A DNA stretch of 64,000 bases. Source: Orenia metallireducens. Its GTDB lineage: Bacteria > Bacillota > Halanaerobiia > Halobacteroidales > Halobacteroidaceae. Shown here in pieces: positions 1,081-41,214 of the stretch (within the stretch, counting starts at the first letter, position 1; each line of letters begins with the position of its first letter). Made by a program: the position numbers and the translations under genes. The notes under the pieces are model-generated. The model made no database searches. It saw only the letters and a program-made list of their open reading frames with translations, and was not told the origin of the DNA. Location of the stretch: the NCBI RefSeq assembly GCF_001693735.1, contig NZ_LWDV01000007.1, positions 212,810 through 276,809 on the forward strand, read 5' to 3'.

Positions 1081-1416
1081 TTATAAATTAGAATTAAATA
1101 ATAATTTATTCTGAATATTAAACTCTTCTATACTACCATCTAATTTCTTTAGCTTCCATACTATTTTATCACCTAAATCCTGAGCCTGCAAGGTAGAACC
1201 TCTCCCACCAATCTCTGCTGGCAGATACATTGCAATAGCTTGCCTTGGACATTCCTTGACACAAGCAGCACAATCCCAACATTCTCGTTTATCCCTTATC
1301 TCTGCTTGATTACTATCATTCTTATATAATAAATTACCAGGACAGACTCTCACACAACGGGACTCTTTACAACTTCCACATCCATTACATAAACTTTTAT
1401 CAATTTTCACCGCCAT
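1081..1416 (-). CDS. aprB: AprB-like ferredoxin subunit of adenylylsulfate reductase
   Basis: A 111-residue, two-cluster ferredoxin. Cysteines at 10, 13, 16, 21 and 25 (CNGCGSC..CVRVC) and at 46, 49, 52 and 56 (CWDCAACVKECP) can bind two [4Fe-4S] clusters, as AprB does when it feeds electrons to the FAD subunit that reduces APS to sulfite and AMP. The start overlaps the end of the AprA-like gene by 17 bases, so translation is probably coupled. It is shorter than AprB of dissimilatory sulfate reducers (about 150 residues), lacking their C-terminal tail. With sulfite reductase, sat and a sulfur carrier in the same operon, an assimilatory role is the natural reading. Confidence 0.8.
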   Translation of the reverse strand: MAVKIDKSLCNGCGSCKESRCVRVCPGNLLYKNDSNQAEIRDKRECWDCAACVKECPRQAIAMYLPAEIGGRGSTLQAQDLGDKIVWKLKKLDGSIEEFNIQNKLLFNSNL

Positions 1417-3094
1417 CTAGATCACCTAACCTTATATGTTCTCTCTCGATGATTTCAATCTTATCAAGCTTTTGATCATACTTAGAATTGACAAATTTAA
1501 ACCAATTTTTATCATCTTTCTTAGGATAATCGACTCTCTCCTGATAACATCTCCAACGGGTCTCTTTTCTATATAGTAGATGTTCTACAAGCACTCTAGC
1601 TACATCTACCCGATCAATGACCTCATGTAAATTCATCAACTGATGAATATTTTCAGCCCTTCCTTTAGTCAAATCAGCCTTTAACCTTTCCAGCTCTTTT
1701 CTAGCTATAATTAGCTTTCCTTCATCTAATAGATAATTGGTACTTAGCCCTCCAGCATATTCATCCATCACCTTCTGCAATCGTTCTTCAAGATCCTCAG
1801 GAAGAAAACCTTCCGACTTCTCTAAGGGTGAAAATACTCTATCAAACTCTTTATCTATAAGGTCATCATCCACCTCTGTAAAGTCTAGCTGACTAATATA
1901 GTTTAAGGCATCAAGTCCTGCTATCTCACCTTCAACCATAGCACCAGTAACATACTTTTTAGGTGCTCCACCAGCCACATCACCAGCTGCATATAGACCT
2001 TCTAAGGTACTTCTTCTTTTACTATCGACCCAATAACCTGATTGAGAATGTCCTCCTACAATATATGGTTCCGTTCCATATATCTCAACTGGACTTTGAT
2101 TAGGCTCTACCTCTCCATCGGCCCACTTTAAAACAATTCCTGGAGACATATTTAAATAAGCTCGCTTTAAACGATGGTTATTCTCATCACTTAAATGAGT
2201 CACATCTAAGTAACAAGGACCTCTACCCTGTTGATTCTCGGCTAAAGTAGCATGTAGCCTATAAGGGGTAGAGTCCTTCTTATATTCCCCCTGATATTCT
2301 AAACCTTCACCATTAACCTGTTTAGCCTTAAAGCTTTGAGCAAGAACTCCTGTAGGAGAGATGGTATCCTTGGTTCTTAAAGCGATAAATCTCATTTCAA
2401 AGGTTGTCATCTCTGCCCCAGCCCTAATTCCCATAGCATACCCAGCTCCAGTATTAAAGGGAGAGTACCACATCTTATGGCGAGCTGAACCTGGATTATT
2501 AGGTTTATAAATCCCAGCAGCTCCTCCTGTAGCACAGATAACAGCCTTGGCTTGAATAACATAGAATTTATTCTCTCTAACTGAAAAACCAAAGGCTCCC
2601 CTAACCTTACCATCTATTACTATATAATTAGTAATATTAACCCTATTTAGAACCTCTACTCCACTCTCTTCAACAGCTTTAGCCATAATCGGCTTAATAT
2701 GTTCACCATTAATCTTGACACTTCGCTTACCTTTAGCTACATAATTACCTACTTCATCCTTTAAGAAAGGTAAACCCCACTTTTCAAGCCAATTGGTTGC
2801 TTTATTTAATCCCTGAGCAAGAGTATAAACCAGATCATCCCTTACCAGACCTTCTGAATCCTTCTTAACATAATCGAGAAAATCCTTTGGTGTTACTCCA
2901 GGATTTAGATAAGCATTGATTGCACTAATTCCTGCTGCCAAACAACCACTTCGCTTGATATGGGCTTTATCAACTATTAAGACATTAACCTCAGGTTGTT
3001 CATCTTTTATCCTAGCTCCTGCATAACATCCAGCAGCTCCTCCCCCAATAATTAAAATGTCAGTCTTTAATTTAACAATATCTATCTTATTCAT
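1400..3094 (-). CDS. aprA: AprA-like FAD subunit, adenylylsulfate (APS) reductase
   Basis: An FAD-dependent oxidoreductase of the fumarate reductase/AprA superfamily, 564 residues from the ATG at 3094. That start has GGGTGA eight bases upstream; the ATG at 3100 is an alternative. The N-terminal dinucleotide-binding motif is IIGGGAAGCYAGARI. The central segment FNTGAGYAMGIRAGAEM followed by ALRTKD resembles AprA. It would reduce APS to sulfite in the cytosol, taking electrons from the overlapping AprB-like ferredoxin. It is about 100 residues shorter than dissimilatory AprA, and no QmoABC or dsrAB is present, which argues for assimilation. A generic succinate dehydrogenase/fumarate reductase flavoprotein is the alternative, made unlikely by the neighbours sat and sir. 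Confidence 0.8.
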   Translation of the reverse strand: MNKIDIVKLKTDILIIGGGAAGCYAGARIKDEQPEVNVLIVDKAHIKRSGCLAAGISAINAYLNPGVTPKDFLDYVKKDSEGLVRDDLVYTLAQGLNKATNWLEKWGLPFLKDEVGNYVAKGKRSVKINGEHIKPIMAKAVEESGVEVLNRVNITNYIVIDGKVRGAFGFSVRENKFYVIQAKAVICATGGAAGIYKPNNPGSARHKMWYSPFNTGAGYAMGIRAGAEMTTFEMRFIALRTKDTISPTGVLAQSFKAKQVNGEGLEYQGEYKKDSTPYRLHATLAENQQGRGPCYLDVTHLSDENNHRLKRAYLNMSPGIVLKWADGEVEPNQSPVEIYGTEPYIVGGHSQSGYWVDSKRRSTLEGLYAAGDVAGGAPKKYVTGAMVEGEIAGLDALNYISQLDFTEVDDDLIDKEFDRVFSPLEKSEGFLPEDLEERLQKVMDEYAGGLSTNYLLDEGKLIIARKELERLKADLTKGRAENIHQLMNLHEVIDRVDVARVLVEHLLYRKETRWRCYQERVDYPKKDDKNWFKFVNSKYDQKLDKIEIIEREHIRLGDLDGGEN

Positions 3095-3175
3095 CTTCAT
3101 CACCCTTTTAAATGCACAGTGTACATTATCGACTGTTAAATTTTAAATTAATAATGCATCAAAGATATTTAAATA

Positions 3176-3281: not shown

Positions 3282-3310
3282 TAAGTGCTTATAAAACTTT
3301 AGCACTTATT
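3282..3310 (-). terminator. Hairpin overlapping the 3' end of sat
   Basis: AATAAGTGCT and AGCACTTATT form a perfect 10-bp stem with an 11-base loop at the sat stop codon. No clear U-run follows on the minus strand, so it may stabilise or process the mRNA between sat and aprA rather than stop transcription. Confidence 0.4.
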
Positions 3311-4457
3311 TCGCCATTCCTCGAATCAATACATCTGCTACCTCTGGTCTAGTCATCTCTTTTGGTGGTCTCTTTCCATCTCTTAATAGTCCACGTACTT
3401 TAGTACCACTTAAGAAGATATGGTCTTCTTGACCATGAGGACATGTCTTCGCAGTAGCCATACTTTCACACTCTTTACAATAGAAAGCATGATCAAAACG
3501 TAATGGTTCAATTCCTATCTCTTCAGGTTTAAAGTTATCAAACATCTCTTGAGCTTCATATGTTCCATAATAATCTCCCACACCTGCATGATCACGACCA
3601 ACAATAAAGTGGGTACAACCATAATTTTTACGGCATAATGCATGGAATACTGCCTCTCTAGGTCCTGCATATCTCATTGCTGCCGGAAACACAGCCAAGC
3701 CTGTTCTATTTTGAGGATAAATCTTATTCATTACTACCTCATAGCTCTCAATTCTGTACTCTACTGGAACATCAGTACCCTTAGTCTCGCCTACTAATGG
3801 TGTTAACAGTAAACCATCACAGATTTCTAGAGCACACTTTTGAATATATTCATGGGCTCTATGGATTGGATTTCTAGTCTGGAAACCTACTACTCGCTTC
3901 CATCCCTTCTCTTTAATTAATTCTCTAACATCCTTTGGATCTAATCGATACTCATTAAATAGCTTATGCTCAATTCTTCTTAATAATGAGATCTTACCTC
4001 CTAATAAAACATCACCACGTTCATAAACCTTTACTACGCCTGGATGCTCAGTCTCTGTAGTCTTATATACTAATTCAGCTTCCTTCTCTTGGTCATACTC
4101 ATACTTATCGGCTAAATGTAAGACTGCATATACAGTTCCTTCACTATCAGTTAAAGCCACATCTTGACCTACCTCTAAATCTTCTGCTTCCTCTTTACTA
4201 ACTCCTAATACAACAGGAATAGTCCAAGCCAAACCATTACTTAAGTACATATCTTCAACGACTTTAATATAATCAGCTTCAGTCATAAAACCTTCTAAGG
4301 GACTATAAAGTCCAATTGCTATATTTTCAGCCTCAGTTAAATCCCTTAAACTTAACTTTAACTGTGGCATCTCAACAGCTTTCTCTAATAAATCTTCACG
4401 TTCTTTTCCTTCTAATACCCTATTAATCAACTTTCCACCATGAGCTTCAATTAACAT
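3306..4457 (-). CDS. sat: Sulfate adenylyltransferase (ATP sulfurylase)
   Basis: Activates sulfate with ATP to give APS and pyrophosphate, the first step of sulfate assimilation. The length, 383 residues, is normal for the single-chain archaeal/bacterial Sat form. The nucleotide-binding motif [11 protein letters not shown] (193-203) and GRDHAGVG (287-294) are intact, and a C-terminal cysteine cluster (C327, C330, C339, then H341) looks like the zinc site of this subfamily. An AGGAG site lies seven bases before the ATG. It sits between cysC and the APS reductase genes, so its product can go to either. No sulfate transporter is encoded in the window. Confidence 0.95.
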
Positions 4458-4877: not shown

Positions 4878-5510
4878 TTATTCTCCCACAACCCTTAACT
4901 TATTTTTAATTACTCCTTGTCTTTGGTCAATAGACTCTAAAACTTTTGTTACTGCCTCTTCTACCGATAATTTAACGGTATCTAATACTAAATCAGCATT
5001 CTCTGGTACTTCATAAGGAGCAGATATTCCAGTAAAGTTCTTAATCTCTCCACTTTTAGCCTTCTCGTATAATCCTTTAGGATCACGTTCAGCACAAGTC
5101 TCTACATCTGCCTTAACATAAACCTCAATAAAGTTATCTTCTCCTGCTCTTTGTCGAGCAAAATCCCTAATCTCTTGATAAGGGGAGATAAAAGAAGCCA
5201 ATGTAATTAAGCCTGCATCCTTAAACAATGCTGCTACTTCAGCGATTCTACGGATATTCTCGTTTCTATCTTCAGCAGTAAACCCTAAATCTGAGTTTAA
5301 ACCATGACGTACATTATCACCATCTAAACGATAAACAACCTTACCTAATTTAATCAATTCCTTTTCAACCTCTACAGCAATAGTAGATTTACCAGCTCCT
5401 GAAAGCCCCGTAAACCAAACAACTAAACCCTCTTGCCCTAAATTATCACATCTATCTTGATAACTTACCTTTCCTTCATGCCAAACGATATTCTTATTCG
5501 ATTCCCCCAT
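4878..5510 (-). CDS. cysC: Adenylylsulfate (APS) kinase
   Basis: Phosphorylates APS with ATP to PAPS in the cytosol. From the ATG at 5510 (GGAGG nine bases upstream; the TTG at 5516 is too close to it) the protein has 210 residues, the normal size. Walker A is GLSGAGKST (35-43); LDGDNVRHGLNSDLGF and FISPYQEIRDFAR are the APS-binding signatures. It lies in the same operon as an APS reductase that would use APS directly, and no PAPS reductase (CysH) is seen in the window. PAPS may serve sulfotransferases or a reductase encoded elsewhere. Confidence 0.95.
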   Translation of the reverse strand: MGESNKNIVWHEGKVSYQDRCDNLGQEGLVVWFTGLSGAGKSTIAVEVEKELIKLGKVVYRLDGDNVRHGLNSDLGFTAEDRNENIRRIAEVAALFKDAGLITLASFISPYQEIRDFARQRAGEDNFIEVYVKADVETCAERDPKGLYEKAKSGEIKNFTGISAPYEVPENADLVLDTVKLSVEEAVTKVLESIDQRQGVIKNKLRVVGE

Positions 5511-5562
5511 ACTCAAACTCCTCCCTAATCTTTTAATTTAAAATTACTATTATGCTACATTA

Positions 5563-6774
5563 TTATTTAAGTGCCTGTGCAAAGTCTGCTTTAAGGTCTT
5601 CTACATTTTCAATTCCTACACTTACTCTAATCAAATCATTATACACACCTAATGCCTCTCTCTCTTTTATTGTATTGCCAGCATAGATTGTAGATGCAGG
5701 ATGAATAACCAATGATTTAACATCACCAATATTGGCTAAGTTATAGAAATACTCCAAATTATTTATGATTTCAAATGCCTTCTCTTTACTACCAACTCTT
5801 AAGGTCAACATGCCACCAAAACCATCACTAAATAACTCTTTAGCCCGCTTATTATACTTATTATCCGCTAAACCTGGATAATTGACCTCTTTTACCTTTG
5901 GATGCTCTGTCAAGAATTCAGCCAACTCTAAAGCATTCTGACAGTGTTTTTTCATCCTTAAAGCTAAAGTAGGGATACCCAATTCATTTAAAAGAGAACT
6001 CAATGGAGATGAGCAAGGTCCAAAGTCCTTAAAGACCTCTCCTCTAGCCTTAGCTGTAAAGGCTAATTTTCCAAATCTCTTATACTCAGCAAAGTTATCA
6101 AAAGTAGTCCAATCAAAGTTTGCTCCATCGATAATCACTCCACCAATGGAGTTAGACGTGCCATTAATATACTTTGAAGTTGAGTGTATTACAAGATTTG
6201 CCCCTAACTCAATTGGCTTAATTAGTACAGGGCTTGTAACTGTACTATCAACAATCAATGGAATCTGATTCTCCTGACAGAGTTTAGCTATACCTTTGAT
6301 ATCTGGGATATCCATTTTAGGATTACCCAGTGTCTCTAAGAAGACGAACTTTGTCTTGTTAGTTACTAACTCTGCAATATCCTCTACTTCAATACCTTGA
6401 CTGAAACGTGGTGTGATTCCATACTTTTGATAGTTCTTAAAGAGATTATAAGTTCCACCAAATAAAGAGCTAGTTGAGATAAACTCATCACCTGCTTCTA
6501 AGAGAGTTAAAGTAGCTGTAGAGATAGCAGCCATTCCTGAAGCAGATAATATGGCCTGTTTTCCACCTTCAAGGCTAGCCAACTTATCCTCTATACTCTT
6601 AGTACTGGGATTACTAATTCTTGAATAAATATATCCCATAGCCCGATTATTAAATACCTTCTCCAAATCCTCAGCATTGTCATAAGCAAAAGAGTTATTT
6701 AAGTAGACTGGAGTATTTGTCGCACCATATTGATCCTTGATCTTTAAATTTACCAACTCCGTTTCAAAGTCCAT
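5563..6774 (-). CDS. metY: O-acetylhomoserine sulfhydrylase, MetY type
   Basis: A PLP enzyme of the Cys/Met metabolism family that replaces the acetyl group of O-acetylhomoserine with sulfur to form homocysteine. Its 403 residues are slightly short for MetY (about 425). The PLP lysine is K201 in HSTSKYING; YSRISNPST and SASGMAAIS are family signatures. The start has GGAGG nine bases upstream. It lies between the sulfite reductase-TusA gene and cysC. With a sulfur carrier, its E1 and a JAMM protease in the same operon, the sulfur donor could be a protein thiocarboxylate, as shown for Wolinella MetY, rather than free sulfide. Cystathionine gamma-synthase/lyase is a less likely alternative. Confidence 0.88.
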   Translation of the reverse strand: MDFETELVNLKIKDQYGATNTPVYLNNSFAYDNAEDLEKVFNNRAMGYIYSRISNPSTKSIEDKLASLEGGKQAILSASGMAAISTATLTLLEAGDEFISTSSLFGGTYNLFKNYQKYGITPRFSQGIEVEDIAELVTNKTKFVFLETLGNPKMDIPDIKGIAKLCQENQIPLIVDSTVTSPVLIKPIELGANLVIHSTSKYINGTSNSIGGVIIDGANFDWTTFDNFAEYKRFGKLAFTAKARGEVFKDFGPCSSPLSSLLNELGIPTLALRMKKHCQNALELAEFLTEHPKVKEVNYPGLADNKYNKRAKELFSDGFGGMLTLRVGSKEKAFEIINNLEYFYNLANIGDVKSLVIHPASTIYAGNTIKEREALGVYNDLIRVSVGIENVEDLKADFAQALK

Positions 6775-6860: not shown

Positions 6861-9191
6861 CTATGCTTTTTTAACTCTTAAGCTATAAGAACCGTCTTCT
6901 CTCTTCTCTTTAGATAAGATCTCATGCCCTTCTGAAGCTAAACTCTGAGGAACATTCGCTATCGGTGCCCCCTCATCTAAATAAATATCTAATATCTCCC
7001 CTGAATCAAGAGGTGCTATTGCCACTTTAGCCTTTACAAAGTTCATTGGGCATTTTACCCCTCTTAAATCTACTACCTTACTATCTAAGATATTCTTATC
7101 TTCGTTATTATTATCACTAGTAACTTCTTCTAATTCAAACTCTAACTTAGCATTTAAAGAGTTGAATAAAAATTCTACTCTCTCAATTAAGCCCTTTATC
7201 TGCCCTTGATAAGATAATAAGCTATCAATATCCCCTAATTTATAATCTAGTGCAGCATCTAAAACTTCAGCATAACCTTTATCCACCAAATTCTTATCAA
7301 TAAACTCGGTTTTGAATTTAGATAAAATAACTCTATCCTTATCTGTATCTATACCTCTAACGGCTAGTAATGATCTAGAAGCATTGACGGTCGCTTTATA
7401 AAGTTCATTATTATCCTCTTCTTTAATAGCTTTTTGATAATTGGATTTAGCAGTATTGATATCTAGTTGAATGATATCCATTACACCTGCTCCACATTCT
7501 CCAGGTCCTCTACCTGCTAAGGAGAAGTCTTCTTCTTTACCCCAATCTTTATAAATATCTGGGTCTTCTTCATAAGTAGGAATCTCAATGAATTGCTCAG
7601 CTAGTTCAACTATCTTATCTTTTCCACCCTTATCTAAGTATTCATTAAAATCTACTCGATTATAATCTTGATCATCAGCCAATAATTTAGCCAACTCTGC
7701 TAAAAATTCTGGTATTCTCTTAGCAGGAATATCTATAGCAGCTTCTCCATACTTACTATTGCCTTCCTCTACATTTCCTCCTAAGAATAATGCATAGTGA
7801 GGAACCAATCTATCATTATATCGTTTAGCTTTACCTTCAAAGCCAATATTACCGATGATATGCTGTCCACAGACATTTGGGCAACCACTGATATAGATTT
7901 GAGGTAATGCTGCTTGTAATTTATCACCTAAAGTGATTAATTTCTCTCTGATAGCCTCTGATAAATTAGGTGAGACACATAACCCTAACTTACAAGTAGA
8001 TGCACCTTTACAAGAGACAGGCATTGTTCCCATATTGGAAACTACTAGGTTTGGATTAACCTGATTAATCTTCTCAATTAATCTCTCTAACTGTTGACCT
8101 TTAACACCTCTGATTAATAAGCCTTGTTTAATAGTAGTTCTTAATGATATCTCACTATCACCTAATAAATCTAGTAAGGAATTTAACTCATCATAGCTGA
8201 TGTCTCCATTCTCCATTCTCAACTCTAAAGAATAGTAGCCCTCTACCTTCTCTTGATAGAGATAATCAGCAGTTAGGTCAATCTTCTCACCCTTACTTTC
8301 TCTTAATTCTTCATATCTATTTAAATCTTCAACCTCTAAATCTTCTGCTAATACCTCTGCTAAGTACTCTTTATATTTATTTACAAACTCTTCATCACCA
8401 AGTCTCTTTCTGACAAAACGTAGTCTAGCTCTATGTTTATTGCTACGATCACCATATTCATCAAAGAATCTCTTAATTGCCTCTGCTATATGGAAGATCT
8501 TATCCTCTTCTACAAATTCCTCTAAAACTATACCCAATTCTGAGGAACCGCCCATTCCTCCTCCGCCATATACCTTAAAGCCTCTTTTACCATCTTGCTT
8601 AATAGCTATAAAACCTAAGTCATTTAACGTGGCTAAAGAGTCATCTTTAGGGTCAGAGGAGAAAGCTATCTTATACTTTCTTGGTAAGTTAAAAGAAGAA
8701 CGTGTCTTAATTAGATATTCTGTTAAAGCCAAGTTATGAGGTGTAGTATCGAAAGCTTCCTCAGGATTCACTCCTGCTCTAGCAGAATTTAAGATGTTTC
8801 TAACAGTATTACCTCCACCACCTCGTGGACTTAATCCAGCCTCTAATAGCTTAAATAGTACTTCAGGAGTATCCTCTATCTTAACCTGGTGAATCTGTAC
8901 ATCCTGTCTAGTAGTAATATGGACATATCCATTTCCATACTCTTTACTTAGTTCATTTAAAGTTCTTAGCTGTTCCTTAGTCACTACTCCACCAGGAACT
9001 CTAACTCTTACCATATATCTCTCCTCACCTGGTTCATAACCCCTTTGACTATAAATTCCCATTGGGACTCTACGCCCTTTAAATCTAGCATCATCTAAGT
9101 CTCCTTTTATAAATTGCTCAACTAAAGCTGGATAATTATTCGTATCCTCTTTAACTGTATCTGGAATATTAAAAGTCGGTCGATTACTCAT
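6861..9191 (-). CDS. Sulfite reductase (siroheme/4Fe-4S) fused to a C-terminal TusA domain
   Basis: A 776-residue fusion. Residues 1 to about 520 are a ferredoxin-type nitrite/sulfite reductase with the siroheme-[4Fe-4S] cysteines C394, C400, C437 and C441 (CKGASTC and CPNVC). Residues about 560-690 are a helical linker resembling a HEPN-like bundle. The last 75 residues are a TusA-type persulfide carrier with its cysteine in VKCPMNFVKAK. It would reduce sulfite to sulfide and keep or pass sulfur through TusA. The ATG at 9191 has GGAAGG at good spacing; the GTG at 9200 does not. Twenty bases separate it from the upstream JAMM protease gene. Sulfite rather than nitrite is inferred from the operon. 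Confidence 0.85.
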   Translation of the reverse strand: MSNRPTFNIPDTVKEDTNNYPALVEQFIKGDLDDARFKGRRVPMGIYSQRGYEPGEERYMVRVRVPGGVVTKEQLRTLNELSKEYGNGYVHITTRQDVQIHQVKIEDTPEVLFKLLEAGLSPRGGGGNTVRNILNSARAGVNPEEAFDTTPHNLALTEYLIKTRSSFNLPRKYKIAFSSDPKDDSLATLNDLGFIAIKQDGKRGFKVYGGGGMGGSSELGIVLEEFVEEDKIFHIAEAIKRFFDEYGDRSNKHRARLRFVRKRLGDEEFVNKYKEYLAEVLAEDLEVEDLNRYEELRESKGEKIDLTADYLYQEKVEGYYSLELRMENGDISYDELNSLLDLLGDSEISLRTTIKQGLLIRGVKGQQLERLIEKINQVNPNLVVSNMGTMPVSCKGASTCKLGLCVSPNLSEAIREKLITLGDKLQAALPQIYISGCPNVCGQHIIGNIGFEGKAKRYNDRLVPHYALFLGGNVEEGNSKYGEAAIDIPAKRIPEFLAELAKLLADDQDYNRVDFNEYLDKGGKDKIVELAEQFIEIPTYEEDPDIYKDWGKEEDFSLAGRGPGECGAGVMDIIQLDINTAKSNYQKAIKEEDNNELYKATVNASRSLLAVRGIDTDKDRVILSKFKTEFIDKNLVDKGYAEVLDAALDYKLGDIDSLLSYQGQIKGLIERVEFLFNSLNAKLEFELEEVTSDNNNEDKNILDSKVVDLRGVKCPMNFVKAKVAIAPLDSGEILDIYLDEGAPIANVPQSLASEGHEILSKEKREDGSYSLRVKKA

Positions 9192-9210
9192 ACTCTTCAC
9201 CTTCCTTTCA

Positions 9211-9624
9211 TTAAATTAATTCGATCTCTACCTGAGTAACATCCTTCTGTTCTTTAATGCTAAAGGCCTTTAATACTGGATCTTCATCCTTTAACGATAA
9301 GATAAAGTAGATTGCATCTTCATCATAAGCCAACCTCTTATCCTCCTCTGAAGGACGCGAAGGGGTAAAAGGATGGGAATGATAATTTCCAATCAAATCA
9401 TAGCCCTTATTTCTAACCTCTTTAACTACCGCAAACTGCTCCTTAGGGTCCATTGTGAAGTGTTCTGCTGAAGCATCTAGATTGGTCATAGTATATACCT
9501 CTTTAACTTCAATCTCATCATCAGTTATTACTCCAGCTACTAAGCCACAGGCCTCATTAGGAAATTCAGCTTGGGTATGATTCAATAACTTCTGATATAG
9601 CTCATCTTTCAATTTAATTATCAT
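9211..9624 (-). CDS. hcyD: JAMM/Mov34 metalloprotease, HcyD-like sulfur-carrier processing
   Basis: A compact 137-residue JAMM peptidase. The zinc signature is complete: E24 (PNEACG), then H82-S-H84-P with S92 and D95 (HSHP, seven residues, SEED). In sulfur-carrier systems (Mec of Mycobacterium, HcyD of Wolinella) such enzymes trim the carrier C-terminus or release the sulfur-bearing amino acid. Here the carrier encoded two genes upstream ends in GGG plus five residues, giving this protease an obvious substrate. The start overlaps the end of the E1-like gene by four bases (ATGA), so translation is coupled. The symbol is by analogy. Confidence 0.82.
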   Translation of the reverse strand: MIIKLKDELYQKLLNHTQAEFPNEACGLVAGVITDDEIEVKEVYTMTNLDASAEHFTMDPKEQFAVVKEVRNKGYDLIGNYHSHPFTPSRPSEEDKRLAYDEDAIYFILSLKDEDPVLKAFSIKEQKDVTQVEIELI

Positions 9625-10439
9625 AACTCACAAACCCCTTGTTCATAATCAATCAATTCTGTAATCTCTGGGTTATCACTACAAACTCCACAGTTCTCTC
9701 TCTTATTAAGATTAATCTTTCTAAAATCCATCTTTAAAGCGTCATATGTTAGTAATTTTCCAGTTAATAGTTCACCTTTTCCTAAGATATACTTAATAGC
9801 CTCTGTTGCTTGAATAGTTCCAATTACTCCACCCATTACCCCTATAACTCCTGCTTCCTTACAAGAAGGAACTGAACCTGGCTTAGGTGGCTGAGGGAAC
9901 ATACATCTATAGCATGGTGTATCCTCTCCTGGAACTACAGTTGTGGTCTGCCCTCCAAATCTGATTATTCCCGCATGGGAGAAAGGCTTTCCTTCCATTA
10001 CACATGCATCATTGATTAAGAATTTAGCCGGGAAATTATCAGTACCATCTATTATAAAATCATACTCTCTAATAACCTCTTTAATATTTTGAGAAGTTAA
10101 GTAGTAATCATAAGTCTTAACCTCTACATCAGGGTTCATAGCATTAATCTTCTCTTTAGCCGATTGGACCTTTAACTTACCCACATCAGGTGTATGATGT
10201 AAGACTTGGCGTTGTAGATTAGAAAGTTCTACCCTATCTGCATCTACTAAACCGATTTTACCGATACCAGCTGCTCCTAAAAACTGTGCTGCTGGTGTTC
10301 CAAGTCCTCCAGTTCCTATAATCAATACTGAAGAAGTTAACAATTTCTCTTGCCCCTCTACACCAACATCCTGCAAAATAATGTGCCTTGAATATCTCTG
10401 TAACTGCTCTTCACTAAAATCGTACACTTGCTCCACCAC
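9621..10439 (-). CDS. hcyF: ThiF/MoeB-family E1-like adenylyltransferase (HcyF-like)
   Basis: Activates the C-terminal glycine of a ubiquitin-like sulfur carrier by adenylation before sulfur transfer. The 272 residues show the ATP-binding GTGGLGTPAAQFLGAAGIG (about 42-60), the DADRVELSNLQRQ loop, zinc pairs C177/C180 and C251/C254, and a candidate catalytic cysteine C194 in PSCKEAG. The GTG start lies inside the GGG-encoding codons of the upstream carrier gene, a 26-base overlap that ties expression of the pair. It could be called moeB or thiF by similarity alone; the JAMM protease, MetY and sulfite reductase next door favour a homocysteine-forming role. Confidence 0.85.
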   Translation of the reverse strand: MVEQVYDFSEEQLQRYSRHIILQDVGVEGQEKLLTSSVLIIGTGGLGTPAAQFLGAAGIGKIGLVDADRVELSNLQRQVLHHTPDVGKLKVQSAKEKINAMNPDVEVKTYDYYLTSQNIKEVIREYDFIIDGTDNFPAKFLINDACVMEGKPFSHAGIIRFGGQTTTVVPGEDTPCYRCMFPQPPKPGSVPSCKEAGVIGVMGGVIGTIQATEAIKYILGKGELLTGKLLTYDALKMDFRKINLNKRENCGVCSDNPEITELIDYEQGVCEL

Positions 10440-10632
10440 CCATAAAGTATAAGAATTCTACCTGATCTCCATCCTTTACAACTGTGTCTGAGAAAGTATC
10501 TCTATCTAAAATCTCACCATTTAACTCTACTGATACCATATCTGGCATATCTACATCTTCTTTTACCAATAATTCACTAACTGTTATTTCTTTTTCCAAC
10601 TCTACTGCTTTACCATTAACTTTAATTTTCAT
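10414..10632 (-). CDS. hcyS: ThiS/MoaD-like sulfur carrier with C-terminal extension (HcyS-like)
   Basis: A 72-residue beta-grasp protein starting MKIKVNGKAVEL at the second ATG (10632), which has GGAG nine bases upstream; the ATG at 10647 would add five residues. The C-terminus reads YFMGGGASVRF, so the di-glycine tail that must be free for thiocarboxylation is masked by ASVRF. Proteolysis is therefore expected before activation, and the JAMM protease is encoded two genes downstream. Its only other domain content is the ubiquitin fold. First gene of the operon below the SAM riboswitch. Thiamine or molybdopterin carriers normally end directly in GG and sit beside thi or moa genes, which are absent here. 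Confidence 0.85.
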   Translation of the reverse strand: MKIKVNGKAVELEKEITVSELLVKEDVDMPDMVSVELNGEILDRDTFSDTVVKDGDQVEFLYFMGGGASVRF

Positions 10633-10788: not shown

Positions 10789-10896
10789 CCCCTCATCTCT
10801 CAATACTTATCTGTATTGCTGGAATTAGCACCTTTCCCTGTCAGGGATGGTTGCTGGGCTTCATCGGGCCAGTCCCTCCACCTCTCTTGATAAGAG
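10789..10896 (-). promoter_or_regulatory. SAM-I riboswitch (S-box) aptamer
   Basis: Read on the minus strand the segment begins CTCTTATCAAGAGAGG, then GTGGAGGGACTGGCCC, GATGAAGCCCAGCAACC, a variable P3 arm, GGTGCTAATTCC and closes with AGATGAG, which is the conserved S-box order. S-box RNAs bind S-adenosylmethionine and terminate transcription when methionine/SAM is plentiful. The controlled operon is sulfur assimilation and homocysteine formation starting with hcyS. Confidence 0.93.
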
Positions 10897-11402: not shown

Positions 11403-12326
11403 TTATTCTGCCTTAAACAGTGTAGTACTTAAATATCTCTCTCCAGTATCTGGAAGGATTACTACAACTCGTTTATCTGCTCCTAATTCTTCAGCCACTT
11501 TGACAGCTGCTGCTACTGCTGCACCAGCAGAGATTCCAACTAAAATCCCTTCTTCTACAGCTAGTTTTCGTGCCATCTCCATAGCCTCTTCATTCTCAAT
11601 CTGTTTAATTTCATCTAAGATACCTGTATTCAACACATCTGGAATAAATCCTGCTCCAATTCCTTGAATCATATGTGGTCCAGGATTTCCTCCACTTAAT
11701 ACCGGAGAACCTGTTGGCTCTACTGCCACAATCTTAATCCCTGAAATCTCATCTTTTAAGACTTCTCCAGTTCCAGTAACGGTTCCACCAGTTCCTACAC
11801 CTGCTACAAAAGCATCTAACTTCCCATCAGTAGCTTCTATAATCTCTTTAGCAGTTGTCTTTCTATGTACATCAGGATTAGCTGCATTCATAAATTGCTG
11901 TGGCATAAAATAATCATCATTAGCATCTGCCAGTTCTTTAGCCTTGTCTATTGCACCAGGCATCCCTTTCTCACCAGGTGTTAACATAATTTCTGCTCCA
12001 AAAGCCTTTAATATCTTTCTTCTTTCGATACTCATCGTATCTGGCATTGTTAAAATAACCTTATATCCTTTAGCAGCACCAACCATTGCTAAACCAATTC
12101 CAGTGTTACCACTAGTAGGCTCAATAATTGTACCACCTGCTTTTAATAAACCTTCTTCTTCAGCACTCTCAATCATATTAAGGGCGATACGATCTTTAAC
12201 ACTTCCTCCAGGATTGAATGACTCTAACTTAGCATAAACCTCTGCAGCACCCTCTGGTACCACTCTATTTAATTTAACCATAGGAGTCTGACCAATCAAT
12301 TCAGTAATATTATTTACAACTCTCAT
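11403..12326 (-). CDS. cysK: Cysteine synthase A (O-acetylserine sulfhydrylase)
   Basis: A PLP enzyme that makes cysteine from O-acetylserine and sulfide. The 307 residues match the family. PLP lysine is K44 in GGSVKDR; the substrate loop TSGNTG is at 71-76; GTGGT is the phosphate-binding glycine loop. AAGGAGGGATAAAG precedes the ATG. It is transcribed alone from the promoter at 12385-12413, on the far side of repeat copy B from the SAM-riboswitch operon, so it is not under that riboswitch. A cystathionine beta-synthase-like role is possible but no regulatory domain is present. Confidence 0.95.
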
Positions 12327-36541: not shown

Positions 36542-36570
36542 TAAAAGATGTAGTCTAAAACTAACATCAA

Positions 36571-36643
36571 CATCCCGTAGTCGACTAGTTTACGGCTAAT
36601 CGGTAGAAACTTTCAGGCCCTATCCCTGATATTATACGGAATT
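36571..36643 (-). promoter_or_regulatory. Guanine riboswitch aptamer (pbuG)
   Basis: Minus strand begins ATTCCGTATAATATCAGGGA, then AGTTTCTACC, CCGTAAACTAGTCGACTACGG. The purine-riboswitch core is complete, and the specificity base is C (GACTA), the guanine class; adenine riboswitches have GATTA. P1 pairs ATTCCGTA with TACGGGAT. Confidence 0.93.
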
Positions 36644-37350
36644 ACTTATACTTTTATTTTATTAATATTGTTTATTATAAAAATCAATTTAATTTTAACA
36701 GATTTAATCATAACTCATATTCACATTGTAATATTAACATAAATCTAAATTATCTTCAAGAAAAAAACTAATATTTTTATCTTATTTATTTCTTTTGTTC
36801 GTGTTTATCCATTTTGTGTAATTAACTACCTTTATAGGTAACTTTTAATTCATTGGTTATCTTCTTATCAAAAATATACTATCAACCACTATACTTACTC
36901 CTCAATTTATGGTGAGCATAAAAAAATCAAAAATAGTATTCAACCAGAGACATATGAATAAATTAAATTCCATCCTAAACTATATTCTATTCCAGTCATC
37001 TTTAAAGCAATTACTTCCACAGATATAGAAAATAATGTCCATATAAATATATATAATAGATTAATAAATCTGTCATCAAGCCCAAAATCATTGCTATATA
37101 ACAGTTGGGAGCTTATTCAAAAAACTTACTTCTATCAGCAAATTTAAAGAATGTAATCCAAGAAATAATAAATAATGAAATAGAAAAAAGCCATATAGAA
37201 TCATCTATCCTTTCACTTATTAGTCATCTCTTTTACTCTATCCAAATCATCTAATAACTATAATAAGAGATTAATCAAGGAATTTATCTATATGGCTTAT
37301 GTTAAACTTAAAATAAGATTATTTATAATACAACTTTACCCTTAGTCTAA
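36644..37350. other. Gene-free spacer with a degenerate plus-strand ORF
   Basis: About 700 bases. The first part presumably carries the pbuG promoter. On the plus strand, about 36940-37260, two frames read HPKLYSIPVIFKAITSTDIE and NVHINIYNRLINLSSSPKSL, then NVIQEIINNEIEKSHIESSI, with stops and a frameshift between. This looks like remains of a plus-strand protein, which would be the only one in the window, but I cannot name a family. Confidence 0.25.
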
Positions 37351-40969: not shown

Positions 40970-41026
40970 ATAGTGATAGATTGATATTCTCATAATCAAG
41001 ATTATATAATATACCAATATAACTAT

Positions 41027-41097
41027 ATCTCGTAGTCGACTAATTTACGGCTAGTCGGTAGAAACTATCGAGCCTTATCCTCGAAATTATACGAAAT
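41027..41097 (-). promoter_or_regulatory. Guanine riboswitch aptamer (guaA)
   Basis: Minus strand starts ATTTCGTATAATTTCGAGGA and continues AGTTTCTACCGACTAGCCGT, AATTAGTCGACTACGAGAT. C at the specificity position (GACTA) marks the guanine class. Second copy of this RNA in 5 kb. Confidence 0.93.
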
Positions 41098-41214
41098 CAA
41101 AAAATTTGTTATTACATTCTTGTCTTCTATATCTTGTAGTATAAGTTACATTGAATCTGTTGTCAAGATTAAAAATAGTTTTACTAAAATTATACTCTTT
41201 TAAACTAATCAAAG

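Follow-up and report, generated by a model that had tools for sequence, protein, structure and literature searches.

Textbook accounts have assimilatory sulfite reductase releasing sulfide. In Wolinella succinogenes, a thiocarboxylate pathway to methionine made up of HcyS, HcyF, HcyD, Sir and MetY was reportedly described by Krishnamoorthy and Begley in 2011, with Sir said to make free bisulfide. The CysO-Mec-CysM system of Mycobacterium likewise combines a thiocarboxylate carrier with a JAB peptidase to feed a PLP enzyme, although its product is cysteine and not homocysteine, and no fused TusA is present. A corresponding operon class was recognised in 2006: in the passages of Iyer, Burroughs and Aravind (PMC1779556) that deal with it, class 4e comprises ThiS, JAB, E1, SirA (the same as TusA) and a sulfite reductase; its neighbourhoods always contain SirA, which is predicted to be rhodanese-like, its E1 is always without a rhodanese, and W. 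succinogenes is listed. In dissimilatory sulfate reducers, finally, the siroheme reductase DsrAB hands sulfur to a protein cysteine, that of DsrC, as persulfide or trisulfide (PMC13188885).

Here we analyse an operon in a 64,000-nucleotide stretch of DNA (the window) in which a sulfite reductase, a HEPN-type helical bundle and a TusA domain form a single chain (SiR-HEPN-TusA). The gene set is the same as that of the Wolinella pathway and that of class 4e; the single chain, an additional cysteine (C566) and the joint losses of TusA and carrier genes described below do not appear in the class 4e passages of PMC1779556. In the open-access literature, we found no description of a fusion of sulfite reductase with TusA or with HEPN, nor of C566 or the joint losses. 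Compared with DsrAB-DsrC, the acceptor is TusA and not DsrC, acceptor and reductase share one chain, and the sulfur is used for biosynthesis; compared with ferredoxin-type NirA/CysI, the catalytic part and the active-site residues are alike, whereas HEPN and TusA are absent from the latter. The operon class and the predicted role of SirA (2006, PMC1779556) and the pathway (2011) are already known, and what is added here is a sharper, testable mechanism for a known operon class.

The operon and the fusion protein

In the window, the operon runs from a SAM-I riboswitch through carrier, E1, JAB peptidase, fusion, MetY, APS kinase and Sat to AprA/AprB (Table 1). With the full gene set in one operon the locus is, judging by gene content, of the HcyS/HcyF/HcyD/Sir/MetY methionine type, and the riboswitch at the head together with MetY inside the operon points, indirectly, to a service in methionine synthesis. 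It differs from the Wolinella pathway in the tail of the carrier (GGG-ASVRF vs. GGG-A) and in having the SAM riboswitch, AprAB and APS kinase in the operon; carrier orthologs from the same operon elsewhere terminate in short tails, among them GGGA. Invariant residues are C193, four Zn-type cysteines and, near the C-terminus, C270 in E1, and E24, H82, H84, S92 and D95 in the JAB peptidase. Profile scans found neither a cysteine desulfurase nor a rhodanese in the window operon, and no Dsr gene among the ten operon-region genes scanned, where the DsrA and DsrB models, whose cut-offs are 393 and 342 bits, scored about 39.

Some features of this region are noted in their own right. AprAB, of a kind known from dissimilatory metabolism, is located in a biosynthetic operon (1081-3103), and it shares this operon with an APS kinase (4878-5516), which direct APS reduction would not need. 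A LuxS-like gene lies directly below the sulfate-reduction operon on the same strand (553-1005), and two purine riboswitches are found on the minus strand of the window at 36558-36659 and 41013-41114.

Table 1. Features of the operon region, in window coordinates, with the evidence for each assignment.
Feature	Position	Strand	Evidence or remarks
APS reductase beta subunit (AprB), ferredoxin-like	1081..1416	-	sequence; adjoins AprA, as in homologous operons
APS reductase alpha subunit (AprA)	1400..3103	-	NF005331, 893 bits
ATP sulfurylase (Sat)	3306..4457	-	PF01747, TIGR00339
APS kinase	4878..5516	-	PF01583, TIGR00455
MetY-like O-acetylhomoserine sulfhydrylase	5563..6774	-	PF01053; TIGR01326, 433 bits
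SiR-HEPN-TusA fusion protein, 776 aa	6861..9191	-	single ORF; Pfam; alignment with 17 full-length relatives
TusA domain, residues 704-776	6864..7082	-	PF01206; CPxNFVK and NVPxS..EGH signature
TusA acceptor cysteine C714 (predicted)	7050..7052	-	invariant in 96/96 fusions
Flexible linker, residues 688-703	7083..7130	-	pLDDT < 50 in full-length model; length differs among relatives
HEPN five-helix bundle, residues 567-687	7131..7493	-	PF05168 in 16/59 members; AF2 model; PDB matches
GRGPGEC motif with C566, residues 560-566	7494..7514	-	C566 in 95/96 fusions; low model confidence
Siroheme sulfite reductase part, residues 1-560	7512..9191	-	Pfam NIR_SIR_ferr/NIR_SIR twice; CysI-type active-site residues
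Siroheme/4Fe-4S cysteines C394, C400, C437, C441	7869..8012	-	invariant in 96/96 fusions; alignment with CysI
hcyD-like JAB metallopeptidase	9211..9624	-	PF14464, E 1.4e-25
hcyF-like E1 adenylating enzyme without rhodanese	9621..10439	-	PF00899, 286 bits
hcyS-like sulfur carrier (ThiS-like), end FMGGG-ASVRF	10414..10632	-	TIGR01683/PF02597
SAM-I riboswitch, operon head	10790..10896	-	Rfam RF00162, 96.7 bits, E 4.6e-22
Cysteine synthase CysK, upstream of riboswitch	11403..12326	-	TIGR01139, 469 bits

The fusion is encoded by an exact ATG-to-stop frame on the minus strand (776 aa plus stop), with aaaggaaggtgaagag, which resembles a ribosome site, just before the ATG and a possible alternative start, GTG, at 9200. 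Pfam assigns two NIR_SIR_ferr and two NIR_SIR stretches, followed by TusA at 705-775. A three-domain protein with identical key residues recurs in dozens of genomes, even where identity falls to 35-45%, so that a chance origin can be excluded and the fusion of sulfite reductase, helical bundle and TusA that a sequence-only reading had proposed is real. All four cluster cysteines named in that reading are present: in the alignment, C394, C400, C437 and C441 correspond to C434, C440, C479 and C483 of E. coli CysI. Likewise, R62, R131, K172 and K174 correspond to the sulfite-binding R83, R153, K215 and K217 of CysI. The anion site is therefore of the sulfite type (R, R, K, K), and the K/N of nitrite reductases is absent. 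With both half-domain pairs and the four cysteines, the reductase part is of the NirA/CysI type, and sulfite reduction is its predicted activity.

Taken on its own, the middle segment of the fusion in the window has no Pfam match, even at E 10, and its assignment to HEPN is based on profile matches of its relatives and on structure. PF05168 (HEPN) is matched by 16 of 59 homologous segments (best E 4e-6), the window copy not being among them, and the AlphaFold (AF2) model of the segment is a five-helix bundle with a pLDDT of 87.6. Foldseek with this model gave nothing at E <= 0.001 (best 2hsb, at 0.05), and a ranking with VIA-align was therefore needed. There, solved HEPN domains fill the top ranks: 2hsb (Z 13.5), 4nqf (11.9), 1wol (11.3) and 3o10, the HEPN domain of human sacsin (11.2). 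While a Z of about 13 may be unspecific for helical bundles, here the PF05168 profile matches agree, in line with the HEPN-type bundle suspected earlier.

The TusA domain scores 63.9 bits (E 1.2e-17) against a PF01206 cut-off of 28.6, and it shares both parts of its signature, CPxNFVK and NVPxS..EGH, with the stand-alone TusA of other hcy operons. Its motif reads C714-P-M-N-F-V-K720-A-K722 (CPMNFVKAK), i.e. CPxxxxK; the sequence-only reading was right about its presence, but the spacing it gave, CPxxxxxK, is one residue too long. C714-P715 is invariant in the fusions, and the second proline of the CPxP form is an asparagine (CPMNFVK).

A further cysteine, C566 of the GRGxGEC motif, is placed directly ahead of HEPN and is kept in all but one of the 96 fusions, while in most relatives without TusA it is replaced (..GEEN/GEEL). 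The TusA-less reductases of the Helicobacter family end in ..GIGEEN, a paralog in genome G123 ends in ..GEEL, and GEC near the C-terminus is retained in only 2 of 32 TusA-less reductases. The full-length structure model has low confidence in the stretch around C566; this fits a mobile arm, but the absent cofactors could also account for it. We infer that C566 acts as a relay or resolving thiol.

TusA and carrier genes across bacteria

A genome scan gave 80 relatives, the nearest named genome being that of Orenia metallireducens (92% identity). The order SiR-HEPN-TusA is found in Halanaerobiales, Clostridium, Geosporobacter and other Clostridia, in Planctomycetota, Lentisphaerae/Kiritimatiellae/Victivallales, Hydrogenedentes, Omnitrophica, Deferribacteraceae (protein L111, with a HEPN profile below threshold) and Goldiibacteriota, as well as in one spirochaete bin, one deltaproteobacterial bin and Helicobacter saguini; a search of Campylobacterales yielded many further fusions. 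A search for this domain order across genomes, as had been proposed, thus finds it in many phyla. One Campylobacterales genome, which we take to be that of W. succinogenes DSM 1740 (the species name is our own assignment), encodes a 764-aa fusion together with JAB, E1 and a carrier whose last residues are GGGA; the reductase of the described Wolinella pathway is therefore very probably SiR-HEPN-TusA.

Carrier genes lie within 12 kb of 50 out of 54 TusA-bearing NirA-type sulfite reductases and of none of 23 TusA-less ones, counted over loci flanked by 5 kb or more on each side and with the peptidase-retrieved set left out; L130 and several short contigs, which are masked or truncated, were excluded. 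For Campylobacterales alone the numbers are 19/19 vs. 0/20, and both counts rest on related sequences. The expected tie of the fusion to a thiocarboxylate carrier, E1 and peptidase thus holds across phyla. Wide occurrence of the fusion without carrier genes, which had been named as evidence against such a tie, was not found, the exceptions being 4 in 54 loci, with a high-scoring E1 in the same genome for two of them. In Frackibacter (L052), carrier, E1 and MetY are on another contig, without a peptidase; a high-scoring E1 adjoins the fusion at L105; for L093, a longer E1 and a weak match to the peptidase, both elsewhere in the genome, are all that was found; and Helicobacter saguini (L109) has neither peptidase nor carrier operon.

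The reverse search took the JAB peptidase as its starting point in 398 Clostridia-type genomes, and 38 neighbourhoods were examined. A sulfite reductase is present in 30 of these, and each of the 30 also has TusA, fused in 11 and as a separate gene in 19, so that the pairing of TusA and sulfite reductase in carrier operons is near-exclusive. The separate gene mostly overlaps or abuts a short ferredoxin-type (AsrC-like) sulfite reductase, which belongs to a different reductase class, and the stand-alone TusA of the 19 loci has CP-x-N/T-F-V-K and the NVPxS..EGH signature, as in the fusion. In three JAB neighbourhoods without a sulfite reductase, E1 instead carries a rhodanese tail (identified with Pfam in one and by eye from the motif in two). 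TusA thus goes with the reductase as the sulfur source, and it does so whichever reductase class supplies the sulfur.

In the reductase tree, the TusA-bearing sequences form one large group with about five losses of TusA inside it: an Akkermansia bin, L113, a Pelosinus group, Helicobacter and a paralog in G123. All of these are without carrier genes nearby, and in G123 the copy that lost TusA is the paralog, while an intact carrier operon is kept beside the fused copy. The peptidase is absent from all nine TusA-less Helicobacter-family genomes. The fusion is kept without a peptidase in Helicobacter saguini and G746, which look like intermediate stages in which the peptidase is lost and TusA remains. 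A sign test on independent pairs of losses gave a p of about 0.06, a weak result from few events.

Possible routes of the sulfur

On balance, we favour the view that the fusion is the sulfite reductase of a thiocarboxylate route from sulfate to homocysteine and methionine, and that it passes its sulfur to C714 and from there to the adenylated carrier. Sat would activate sulfate, AprAB would reduce it to sulfite, and the N-terminal siroheme enzyme would reduce the sulfite. C714 of TusA would take up the sulfur, which would most likely be zero-valent and bound as a persulfide, and a mobile C566 arm may deliver it. The JAB peptidase would trim the tail of the ThiS-like carrier and E1 would then adenylate the C-terminal glycine, to which C714 would donate its sulfur; carrier thiocarboxylate and O-acetylhomoserine would react on MetY, and JAB would release homocysteine. 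Making a thiocarboxylate from a persulfide would need one further thiol, for which C566 or C193 and C270 of E1 are candidates. Thus, we picture a persulfide on C714, a relay through C566 and a transfer to either the carrier or E1.

Forming a persulfide on a thiol from free sulfide requires an oxidation, and a persulfide on TusA would therefore imply that zero-valent sulfur is released or that a disulfide is involved. According to a study of 2026 (PMC13188885), zero-valent sulfur is the direct product of four assimilatory sulfite reductases, and sulfide arises only secondarily; with such direct production a persulfide hand-off would be chemically natural. We speculate, more tentatively, that the fusion does in assimilation what DsrAB-DsrC does in dissimilation: the siroheme site would take sulfite no further than zero-valent sulfur, which would travel by way of the C566 arm, the C714 persulfide and the carrier thiocarboxylate and never appear as free sulfide. 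A widespread chain that unites reductase and carrier offers a direct handle on protein-channelled sulfur all the way from sulfite to methionine. It suggests a protein-to-protein hand-over in place of free sulfide, and it offers a reason why some bacteria employ a protein carrier for amino acid synthesis.

Alternatively, Sir might release free bisulfide that reacts with the adenylated carrier, as in the model reportedly published for Wolinella, and TusA might then be dispensable; it would dock E1 or the carrier, or prevent loss of sulfide, without an obligatory role for its cysteine. CysK, a user of free sulfide, does adjoin the operon. However, pure docking would have no need for C714, which is invariant in all 96 fusions, and in other operons the fusion is replaced by a stand-alone TusA with the same CP motif; we consider this explanation rather unlikely.

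We give little chance to a role of TusA on the substrate side, in which it would carry sulfite bound as an S-sulfonate, or thiosulfate-derived sulfur, to the siroheme. In other systems, TusA-like proteins do deal with thiosulfate (TsuB matches), and AprAB produces the sulfite that is used here, but Planctomycete and Campylobacterales loci keep TusA without nearby Apr genes, which ties TusA to the genes of the sulfur-accepting carrier and not to those that make sulfite.

It is also scarcely probable that the C-terminal half is a regulatory device outside the sulfur path, binding nucleotide or RNA as HEPN domains often do. The middle segment has the HEPN fold, but only 10 of 59 members have the nuclease motif R-x4-6-H, so that a ribonuclease role is unlikely, and among the sampled reductases HEPN is found only alongside TusA. 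In Bacteroidota, some sulfite reductases may have HEPN and lack TusA. Most likely, the bundle is a non-nuclease spacer or docking module.

Loading of TusA by a cysteine desulfurase, the classical situation in E. coli (PMC6225789), with the fusion merely coordinating two sulfur supplies, is hardly credible here, since the window operon has neither desulfurase nor rhodanese and the rhodanese-E1 examples examined have neither sulfite reductase nor TusA.

Variant gene arrangements in related loci

Several loci show other arrangements of the same genes. The JAB peptidase is fused in front of SiR-HEPN-TusA at L078:9578-12229 and L079:9572-12361, and at L276:8966-10237 it forms a single chain with a short AsrC-like sulfite reductase. 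At L057:15857-16879, a ThiS-like carrier is N-terminal to E1 in one chain (..FFMGGGAFDLTEEEIERYSRH..), and carrier-E1 fusions are also found at L058, L059, L060, L098, L110, L263 and L273; where the carrier is fused to E1, the peptidase must free its C-terminal glycine before use. In genome G011, of the same order, a stand-alone TusA of 86 aa (L048:8793-9053; 73% identical) is located beside a truncated AprA, and in the absence of the reductase and carrier genes this is apparently a decaying operon. Finally, dsrA/dsrB-like genes occur near TusA, a short sulfite reductase and a JAB peptidase at L278 and L282, so that dissimilatory and carrier-type sulfur genes can adjoin.
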